Shown: in pieces, positions 48,875 to 55,393 of the stretch | Numbering within the stretch: position 1 is the first letter of the stretch | Layout of the letters: every line of letters starts with the position of its first letter | Assembly (NCBI GenBank): GCA_030833925.1 | Contig: JAURGE010000002.1 | Span: 1-64,000, forward strand | DNA length: 64,000 nucleotides | Direction: 5' to 3' | Source of the DNA: Alphaproteobacteria bacterium | GTDB lineage: Bacteria > Pseudomonadota > Alphaproteobacteria > Bin95 | Notes under the pieces: model-generated | The model's database searches: none | What the model was told of the DNA's origin: nothing | Seen by the model: the letters and a program-made list of their open reading frames with translations, nothing else | Translations under genes and position numbers: made by a program

Positions 48875-49282
48875 ATGTCACTTGGTCGTCTGACTATAAT
48901 AATTCAAACTAAGGCACTAGACAGAGTTCACTATGCTCTGATGCTCGCTGCATCACACGCAGCCCTTGATGGGAAAGTGCACCTTTTTTTCGGCATAGAA
49001 GGTGTAGAGACGCTGAAGGTAAATAATTGGCCTAACCTGAAGACTGCCTCTGGCGAAGGGGGAGCGGCCTACTTGGATAGACTAGAAGTGGCGGGCGCAG
49101 CTCATCCAGATGAGCTATTTTCGGCTCTCAAGGAATTAGATGTCGAAATAACCGCATGTGACACGGCACTCTCCGTAGCTGGAATGTCCCCCGGAAGCAT
49201 GATGCAAAGTGTCAATATAGAAATTTCTGGTATCACTTCTGCGCTATCCAATGGGAAGGATGGCCAGATCATTTACGTCTAA
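48875..49282 (+). CDS. DsrE/F-like protein
   Basis: LTIIIQTKALDRVHYALMLAASHAALDGKVHLFFGIEGVETL: DsrE-fold N-terminus. Confidence 0.7.
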   Translation: MSLGRLTIIIQTKALDRVHYALMLAASHAALDGKVHLFFGIEGVETLKVNNWPNLKTASGEGGAAYLDRLEVAGAAHPDELFSALKELDVEITACDTALSVAGMSPGSMMQSVNIEISGITSALSNGKDGQIIYV

Positions 49283-53430: not shown

Positions 53431-54873
53431 ATGCGTTTTGTCGCGGTTGTAAAAGAAGATTGCCCAACATGCAGATTGGCAGTTCCTGCGTTGGCAGAAA
53501 TGCGCGCTGCCGGACTAGAACTCGAGATAATAACACAGGATATAGCCCAGTTTCCTCGGGGCTTGAGCCCTAGACACGACTCAGACCTTCTTGAAAGCCA
53601 TAAGCTCCGCATCGAGATAGTTCCAACAGTTATTGCCTTTGACGAAAAGACAGAAAATTCTCGCGTTTACGGCTGGAATAAAAACGAATGGCGCTCAATC
53701 ACCGGACTTAGCGAACTCGGCAACACAATGCCTGAAAACATGCCCGGTTGCGGTGCCCTTAATGTAGCCCCCGGAATGCCCGAAAGGCTAGCTTTACGAG
53801 CTGGGGAAATTTCACTGAATTCACGCTCAATCGAAGTTGATGACGAAAGCGACCCAATGGAGGTTGCCTTCGATCGCGGTTGGACCGATGGCCTGCCAGT
53901 GACGCCACCGACTGATTTGCGGGTCGCAAGAATGCTCGCCGGCACAAGCAAGAAGTCAGATGAAATTATTGGATTAATCCCCCCTAATCTCGTCCCATGC
54001 ACCGTCGAGAAAGCTGCCATAAATGCAGTCATGGCAGGCTGTCGCCCTGAGTACTTTCCGGTTTTATTAGGAGCCATAAAAGCGGCTCTGGAGCCCGAGT
54101 TTGCTATGCATGGACTTCTTTGCACCCTTGCCTTTTCTGGTCCTCTTCTGCTGGTGAATGGCCCCATTTCTCGACGTATCGGGATGAACTCTGGTGGGAA
54201 TGCCCTTGGGCAAGGTAACCGAGCAAACGCTACCATCGGACGGGCATTTCAGCTGATAATCCGAAATGTTGGCGGCGGTCGACCACAAGAAATCGACCGC
54301 GCATGCCTTGGCCAACCAGGAAAATACACTTTCTGCTTTGCAGAGGATGAACGCGACGAGGACTGGGTTCCACTTGCGCAGGCCAGGGGCATTGAGGCTG
54401 GAAAGTCGGCAGTCACACTTTTCCACGCCGATGGAGTTACTGGATTTGTTGACCAAAAAAGCAGGACGGCAGCAGAACTATGTGAATCAATGGCCATGCA
54501 ACTATGGAGCGTAAATCACCCAAGGCTAGCTCGTTGGGGCAATGCGATTCTTGTTATTTCTCCTAATCACTATGAAATTTTTCGGAAAGATGGATGGGGT
54601 AGAGCAGAGATTGAAGATGGACTGCATCAAGCCTTAAAACGACCAGTATCAGAAATTATGGAGGGAGCTGGCCATCCGCTCGGCATGACGCCAGCACAGG
54701 CGGATCAGTATGCCGACTCTAAGGGCATGATTGACAAATTCCATCCAGGAGGTCTCTTGATAGTCAGAGCTGGTGGCCCCGGCGCTCTAATGTCCGCTAT
54801 TATTGGCGGGTGGACTGGTGGTCGAAATAATGCAGAAGTGCGGCCTGTTACCCGCGCCTTAGAGGAGTTTTAA
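53431..54873 (+). CDS. Thioredoxin-like domain (CPTC) fused to a ~350-aa uncharacterised domain; candidate partner of the UGSC selenoprotein
   Basis: FVAVVKEDCPTCRLAVPALAEMRAAGLELEIITQD N-terminus; C-terminal region DPMEVAFDRGWTDGLPVTPPTDLRVARML...IPPNLVPCTVEKAAINAVMAGCRPEYFPVLLGAI. Ends 4 nt before the selenoprotein ATG. Confidence 0.8.
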   Translation: MRFVAVVKEDCPTCRLAVPALAEMRAAGLELEIITQDIAQFPRGLSPRHDSDLLESHKLRIEIVPTVIAFDEKTENSRVYGWNKNEWRSITGLSELGNTMPENMPGCGALNVAPGMPERLALRAGEISLNSRSIEVDDESDPMEVAFDRGWTDGLPVTPPTDLRVARMLAGTSKKSDEIIGLIPPNLVPCTVEKAAINAVMAGCRPEYFPVLLGAIKAALEPEFAMHGLLCTLAFSGPLLLVNGPISRRIGMNSGGNALGQGNRANATIGRAFQLIIRNVGGGRPQEIDRACLGQPGKYTFCFAEDERDEDWVPLAQARGIEAGKSAVTLFHADGVTGFVDQKSRTAAELCESMAMQLWSVNHPRLARWGNAILVISPNHYEIFRKDGWGRAEIEDGLHQALKRPVSEIMEGAGHPLGMTPAQADQYADSKGMIDKFHPGGLLIVRAGGPGALMSAIIGGWTGGRNNAEVRPVTRALEEF

Positions 54874-54877
54874 GCCT

Positions 54878-55393
54878 ATGACCTACGCTATGCGCGACCC
54901 AACTGCGGAAAGTGCCTCATCGCTTAGAGAAAGACGACCGCCACCTGGCAGTCTTAACGGGAAGACTGTTGCCCTCCTTTCAATTTCCAAAGAGCGTTCA
55001 GACGAGTTCATGGACGCCCTAGAGCCATTGATCCAAGCAGCCGGCGTAAAAACCATTAGATTTAAAAAGCCAACCCATACAAAGCCTGCGCCAGAAACTG
55101 TCCTCCAAGACATTGTTGAGAGCTGCGACCTGGTTGTCGAAGCCCTAGCAGATTGAGGCTCGTGCACGTCGTGCAGTTTGCATGACATTCACCAGCTCGA
55201 CATTCGCGGGATTCCTGGGTGTGCCACAGCCACGGTTGAGTTTCAGCAGGCCGCAGAAGCTCAAGGAAAGGCTTTAGGTTTTGCCCCCGCGATAGTTTGG
55301 ACAGCGCATCCTATCCAAAATAAGACAGCCGAAGAGTTGAAGGCGCTCGCCAGGGAAGCAGCTCCCGAAATTCTCAGAAGCATACAGGCTTAG
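54878..55393 (+). CDS. UGSC-family selenoprotein with in-frame TGA (Sec93) at 55154-55156; ~171 aa
   Basis: ORF-track pieces 54878..55156 and 55178..55393 are in the same frame (offset 300 nt), separated by one TGA. Read-through gives ...CDLVVEALAD-U-GSCTSCSLHDIHQLDIRGIPGCATATVEFQQAAEAQGKALGFAPAIVWTAHPIQNKTAEEL.... A SECIS-like hairpin begins at the TGA. Confidence 0.93.
55154..55199 (+). promoter_or_regulatory. Bacterial SECIS element for Sec insertion at UGA 55154-55156
   Basis: Hand fold: upper stem GUCGUGCA(55168-55175)/UGCAUGAC(55179-55186), 8 bp with one G-U, loop GUU (55176-55178). Lower stem UGAG(G)CU/AGCUCG (55154-55160 with 55194-55199) and GUG/CAC (55162-55164 with 55190-55192). 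Loop begins 19 nt after the UGA, with G in loop position 1. Confidence 0.82.

Follow-up and report, generated by a model that had tools for sequence, protein, structure and literature searches.

A UGSC-family selenoprotein gene with an obligate upstream partner points to a thioredoxin-linked two-protein redox system

Introduction

A TGA codon interrupts an otherwise continuous reading frame in a 64,000-nucleotide stretch of alphaproteobacterial DNA (contig JAURGE010000002.1 of assembly GCA_030833925.1, positions 1 to 64,000; hereafter, the window). Does this codon end a protein or encode selenocysteine (Sec), and if it encodes Sec, what might the protein do? The frame was originally predicted to encode a member of UGSC, a family with a UxxC motif that has been described as a major one among aquatic selenoproteins (PMC2398784). 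A 2026 review, in the part that covers the family, still lists it as uncharacterised and without known function (PMC13188914), in agreement with the earlier statement that its function is unestablished.

The informative parts of our analysis, absent from the original prediction, are a partner gene, a relation to PrdB/GrdB and a link to the thioredoxin system. The partner, this kinship with glycine and proline reductases, and operons with thioredoxin and thioredoxin reductase turn UGSC from a motif into a testable biochemical hypothesis, for which two purified proteins would suffice. In the open literature as far as searched, we found no report of an obligate UGSC partner, PrdB/GrdB kinship or thioredoxin operons, and to that extent the obligate partner, the PrdB/GrdB homology, the predicted flavodoxin-like fold and the adjacent trxB/trxA genes are new.

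Results

A single reading frame with one in-frame TGA

The locus contains the following coding features:

54878..55393, forward strand: UGSC-family selenoprotein gene
55154..55156, forward strand: in-frame TGA, Sec93, the predicted catalytic residue of UxxCxxC; TGA in all close orthologs, and a C/U93 column that is invariant in 51 homologs
55163..55165, forward strand: Cys96, a nearly invariant residue (at least 90% conserved) and the resolving-type Cys of UxxC
55172-55174, forward strand: Cys99, which completes UxxCxxC; Trp or another residue in some paralogs

The TGA is the sole interruption of the frame, which encodes a product of 171 aa (MTYAMRDPT...EALAD-U93-GSCTSCSLHD...RSIQA) and then ends in TAG; the coordinates and the reading originally given for it are exact. 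A mechanical ORF list divides the frame into 54878-55156 and 55178-55393, also as predicted, and the TTG 'start' of the second of these ORFs sits within the loop of the SECIS hairpin described below and is not a genuine start.

Searching with the read-through product gave a match to the PF24696 profile with 127.9 bits (cut-off 25; E=5.7e-37, positions 2-170 of 172), while NF041046, 'UGSC family (seleno)protein', scored 124 bits, 1 bit short of its cut-off of 125. The [U/C]-G-S-C motif is present as U93-G-S-C96 and conserved across the 51 homologs, with Sec aligned to Sec or Cys at position 93 throughout. By these profile and motif matches, the product is a member of the UGSC family, as predicted: the match is full-length, Sec stands within UGSC, the size is the same, and we see no essential difference.

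Conservation of the TGA codon

Among 385 Alphaproteobacteria genomes, a search for the UGSC family returned 100 matches, of which 95 contain exactly one in-frame TGA. Four have no stop and are Cys versions reading CGSS, CGSC or CGLC (L083-L086), and one, a fragment, stops short of the Sec site. The source genome itself has four UGSC genes, with one TGA in each. Orthologs with 80-90% protein identity to the window gene (L051-L054, L101, L104) have TGA at the same codon and an open frame downstream of it, in which close orthologs differ mainly at third codon positions. Between L051 and the window gene, the differences 3' of the TGA fall 7/4/40 at codon positions 1/2/3, which shows selection at the protein level on the downstream half.

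A SECIS hairpin supported across the family

Decoding of the TGA as Sec would involve a SECIS element, which the original prediction had called plausible:

55157..55197, forward strand: bacterial-type SECIS hairpin, supported by its fold against synonymous recodings over 47 genes and by compensatory changes

The hairpin has an apical stem of 8 bp (55168-55175 with 55179-55186) and a GUU loop (55176-55178) 19 nt after the UGA. Both the distance from UGA to loop and a loop starting with G match the bacterial SECIS rule. Pairing probabilities are at least 0.99 for seven of the eight apical pairs; taken alone, the window hairpin is moderately unusual, with one of three tested stretches reaching z -2.2. 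Over 47 Sec-UGSC genes, each compared with 300 synonymous recodings, the 45 nt from the TGA gave a mean z of -2.15, compared with -0.13 to -0.54 for five control segments elsewhere in these genes. The apical stem is paired in 88.6% of alignment cells, and it contains two-sided changes, with C-G becoming G-C at columns 21/27 in 8 genes. A scan of the window gave no Rfam match above cut-off, so support for the element comes from fold and covariation. We regard this family-wide fold test as strong evidence for a SECIS, compared with the moderate evidence of the single-window fold.

Sec machinery in the source genome and its relatives

The source genome, a draft of 2.78 Mb that is 91% complete, contains tRNA-Sec (selC; 71.5 bits, C156:5421), selB (434 bits, C117:19867) and selA (515 bits, C117:18515). 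The machinery implied by the original prediction is thus present except for selD, for which a profile search of this draft found only a weak best match (L017). Since NusB/RibH-like genes adjoin it, this match is most likely ThiL, and we rejected it as selD. Each of the eight genomes searched from the same genus or family has selD above cut-off, which makes an assembly gap the likely reason for its absence from the draft. The selD frames in these relatives are 715-765 aa long, a length that would fit the known Ndh-SelD fusion.

In a wider comparison, selB is above cut-off in 34/38 genomes with UGSC and in 18/334 others (Fisher 1.4e-30). The four UGSC genomes lacking it are G024, which is 77% complete, G348, in which selB is cut by a contig end, and G336 and G373, which have Cys-UGSC.

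At individual loci, UGSC adjoins selD in one genome (G002:C104:19065-20648), and in G070, G103, G135, G351 and Paracoccus it is only about 4-7 kb away from selB. These positions suggest that UGSC travels with Sec machinery.

Four independent lines of sequence evidence, namely TGA conservation, the machinery, co-occurrence with selB and the SECIS, agree in supporting Sec, and 54878-55393 is strongly supported as encoding a genuine selenoprotein. If the TGA were instead a true stop, the locus would be a pseudogene or encode two separate short proteins, as the division of the frame by mechanical ORF calling would have it. We give this practically no credence, given that 95 of the 100 homologs keep the TGA, the downstream frame is open and selected, and a SECIS and Sec genes are present. 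A sequencing error, which had been named as an alternative at the outset, is ruled out together with a pseudogene and two ORFs by the conservation of the TGA, the downstream codon pattern and the SECIS fold.

That standard gene callers mis-split such genes, as originally claimed, is true in part. In Paracoccus ferrooxidans (plasmid pFER4, L162, 5435-6004), the annotation breaks a Sec-UGSC at the TGA into two hypothetical proteins, with selB ~4 kb downstream; public pipelines, however, know the family, which NCBI annotates under the name 'UGSC family (seleno)protein'. Our analysis points to where Sec members still get annotated as two short hypotheticals.

In another reading, UGSC could be a selenium or metal(loid) handling protein (Hg, As or selenite) rather than an enzyme. 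UxxCxxC could bind soft metals, atom or moiety binding, mostly of metals, is predicted for about 20% of selenoprotein families in the relevant part of the 2026 review (PMC13188914), and selB is close by at the loci named above. We consider this very improbable, as Trp often replaces the third Cys and the loci examined show no consistent mer or ars neighbours, while a nearby selB is to be expected whenever a gene moves together with its Sec machinery.

An obligate partner gene upstream of UGSC

Immediately upstream of UGSC lies a second gene on the same strand:

53431..54873, forward strand: partner gene, 480 aa, with a thioredoxin-fold domain and a ~330-aa domain without a family model; adjacent to UGSC at 46/46 loci
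53431..53685, forward strand: thioredoxin/glutaredoxin-fold domain of the partner (residues 1-85; AlphaFold2 pLDDT 96-98, Foldseek matches to thioredoxins), with C11-P-T-C14 (CPTC) at 53461-53472
53848..54870, forward strand: core domain of the partner, common to all paralogs (residues about 140-480)
54862..54867, forward strand: Shine-Dalgarno sequence GAGGAG in the partner 3' end, 10 nt before the UGSC ATG

Only 4 nt separate the partner stop from the UGSC start, and the two genes share a strand at every one of the 46 UGSC loci examined. In tblastn and profile searches, it is the C-terminal ~330 residues of the partner that go with UGSC throughout. A search of 372 genomes found the partner in 38, exactly those with UGSC and none discordant. 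Judged by this co-occurrence, the gene at 53431-54873 is the obligate partner of UGSC, and the upstream 'hypothetical protein' merits a family model of its own.

The arrangement of the pair varies. In type A, to which the window belongs, a thioredoxin domain and core are followed by UGSC; in type B, the core alone precedes UGSC; in type C, UGSC is followed by two core genes; and in type D, UGSC is fused to the core. Paired genes also occur in Haloarchaea (Halorientalis, Natrinema, Halalkalicoccus, Halosolutus), Actinomycetota (Arthrobacter, Embleya) and Betaproteobacteria (Variovorax, Acidovorax). Conversely, 7 of 104 partner matches have no UGSC match within 3 kb, and UGSC is absent at each of the five of these loci that were examined. 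One such orphan partner-domain gene (L150, G000:C170, 6049-7230) has genes for Rieske dioxygenase subunits and an RND efflux operon as neighbours; G001, G002 and G078 contain four more orphans.

The invariant residues of the partner are D153, G154, P156, A202-G203-C204, R271 and E305. The core domain matched nothing in Pfam, NCBIfam or PDB sequences. The AlphaFold2 model of the partner is confident (mean pLDDT 94.3, pTM 0.90), and a Foldseek search with its core domain gave no significant match; weak matches to class I fumarase and Toblerone-fold hydrolases were disregarded. A domain fused to UGSC, 'Unknown_1', was described in 2008 as rare and limited to a few aquatic organisms in the portion of that survey concerned with it (PMC2398784). 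The partner core may be this domain; its distribution differs, as the partner lies beside every UGSC locus examined, in two domains of life.

In two UGSC-partner fusions, from Sporomusa termitida (L161) and Vibrio europaeus (L163), Met replaces Sec/Cys (DMGTS), and genes for aconitase X and DUF126 are close to each. It is possible that these Met-type fusions form a non-redox subfamily.

A predicted flavodoxin-like fold and distant kinship with PrdB/GrdB

The AlphaFold2 model of UGSC (pLDDT 94.1, pTM 0.88) is a five-stranded alpha/beta sandwich of beta-alpha repeats, in which Sec93 is placed between a strand (85-91) and a helix (94-109). Flavodoxins rank first in Foldseek, and no thioredoxin occurs among the 50 matches listed, leading us to predict that UGSC is flavodoxin-like and not thioredoxin-like. 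A thioredoxin-like fold had been suggested in 2008, in the section of the survey dealing with the family (PMC2398784), and is not supported by this model or its Foldseek matches. Searches of PDB sequences with UGSC and with the partner gave no meaningful relatives.

A comparison of profiles with hhalign, 51 UGSC proteins against nine PrdB-like proteins, gave a score of 46.9 (E 1.5e-6, probability 84-90%) over about 60-75 residues, in which Sec aligns with Sec and Cys with Cys. By comparison, 200 column-shuffled trials reached at most 21.7, and unrelated profiles scored 12-15. UGSC models also weakly match one PrdB-like selenoprotein of the source genome (E=0.0016, 0.0095). PF07355 gave no match to five UGSC members at E<=10, and we therefore reject membership of UGSC in GrdB/PrdB proper and conclude, from the profile alignment, that its Sec half is distantly homologous to PrdB/GrdB.

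Several features are shared with PrdB/GrdB (PF07355, TIGR04483). These are UxxC(xxC), the following G-I-P strand and an H/F-P segment; a two-subunit arrangement, as in UGSC and its partner; thioredoxin and trxB beside the genes; and, for GrdB in the passages concerned (PMC10838667), several copies per genome. The difference lies in the PF07355 result and in the partner, which is not PrdA/GrdE; these pyruvoyl subunits have no detectable relation to it in Pfam or NCBIfam. The hosts also differ, as those of the UGSC loci examined are mostly what we take to be respiratory proteobacteria, actinobacteria and haloarchaea.

Linkage to the thioredoxin system

A TrxR-like flavoprotein with an invariant CAxCDG, for which thioredoxin-disulfide reductase is the best model, is encoded beside 8 of the 46 alphaproteobacterial loci, and 208 kb of background loci contained no TrxR-like match. 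All eight are of types C and D, which have no fused thioredoxin domain; no trxB was found near type-A loci, including that of the window. On plasmids, an Arthrobacter encodes trxB-trxA-partner-UGSC in a row, a Roseovarius has partner-UGSC-trxB, Variovorax sp. SRS16 has trxB near its UGSC locus, and two further plasmids have a similar flavoprotein at theirs. Given the Arthrobacter gene order, the fused thioredoxin domain of the window corresponds to the separate trxA.

This linkage mirrors glycine reductase, in which thioredoxin supplies the electrons. There, according to the relevant part of the 2026 review, the presumed contact of the GrdB UxxCxxC motif is GrdA (PMC13188914), and the passages on GrdB-type proteins in PMC10838667 infer that these attack even C-F bonds through Sec.

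Paralogs and their gene neighbourhoods

Genomes contain up to eight divergent UGSC paralogs, in differing catabolic and transport neighbourhoods. The copy in the window adjoins an acyl-CoA dehydrogenase gene. Enzymes encoded at other loci include a molybdopterin oxidoreductase, amidase, Rieske dioxygenase and CoA transferase/ester lyase, and transporters there are of the TRAP, tripartite-tricarboxylate and Liv types; single loci pair the amidase with a Liv-type transporter and the CoA transferase/ester lyase with a TRAP transporter. These neighbours vary so much that no single substrate pathway emerges, and the different settings suggest that the paralogs act on different substrates.

Another paralog has its partner/UGSC pair just a few bases downstream of a gene for a 771-aa molybdopterin oxidoreductase (L080, G000:C64, 1610-3925). 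Within the window, the neighbours of a gene for a DsrE-like protein (48875-49282) encode a Bfd-like [2Fe-2S] protein and a dienelactone hydrolase, and L055 shows partial synteny with the block that reaches up to UGSC.

The paralogs bear on another reading, in which UGSC serves generic thiol or peroxide defence as a selenol peroxidase or disulfide reductase without a specific metabolic substrate, with the partner as reductase or scaffold. Sec in UxxC coupled to thioredoxin and TrxR is indeed typical of peroxiredoxin-like selenoproteins. Nevertheless, we hold this role to be unlikely, as the predicted UGSC fold is neither thioredoxin nor peroxiredoxin, up to eight divergent copies per genome occur in such different neighbourhoods, and the large conserved core domain of the partner would be left unexplained.

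Discussion

Taken as a whole, a model in which a true selenoprotein forms one subunit of a thioredoxin-fed two-protein redox enzyme with its upstream partner is probably correct, and the broader claim of a thioredoxin-fed selenoreductase is quite likely. For the chemistry, our leading idea is a reductive cleavage like that of GrdB/PrdB, which we see as evenly poised between right and wrong. What the sequences themselves show is Sec, the SECIS, the obligate pairing, the distant PrdB/GrdB homology and the tie to the thioredoxin system; the electron route, the cleavage chemistry and the range of substrates among paralogs are deduced from these.

In the proposed mechanism, UGA-93 would be decoded as Sec by SelB and tRNA-Sec through the hairpin just downstream. 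UGSC would contribute a flavodoxin-like domain, akin to the Sec domain of PrdB/GrdB, with the Sec93 selenolate placed where a helix begins. This selenolate would then attack a substrate that UGSC and the partner core domain hold between them at their interface, cleaving or reducing it. The product would be a selenenyl-sulfide (Sec93-Cys96) or a substrate-Se adduct, which the CPTC thioredoxin domain fused to the partner may reduce in the subtype of the window. In other subtypes, separately encoded trxA/trxB would do so, and electrons would thus ultimately come from NADPH; we infer a route from NADPH via a TrxB-like protein and the thioredoxin domain to Sec/Cys of UGSC.

More tentatively, and with some doubt on our part, UGSC and its partner might represent a widespread unrecognised class of thioredoxin-dependent two-subunit selenoenzymes, with Cys versions in Haloarchaea and Actinobacteria. 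These would reductively cleave imported carboxylate-type compounds in organisms other than Stickland fermenters, with a partner unrelated to the pyruvoyl subunits of glycine and proline reductases.

The non-clostridial source genome also encodes two PrdB/GrdB-like U-x-x-C proteins (L121, G000:C115:67652-68005; L124, G000:C43:33285-33680), which match TIGR04483 (84-103 bits) and PF07355 and are probably further selenoproteins. They resemble UGSC as Sec UxxC proteins but differ in their N-terminal region, and no UGSC partner was seen in ~3.4 kb around them. L124 is adjoined by a hydantoinase-B-like end and a TauD-like gene.
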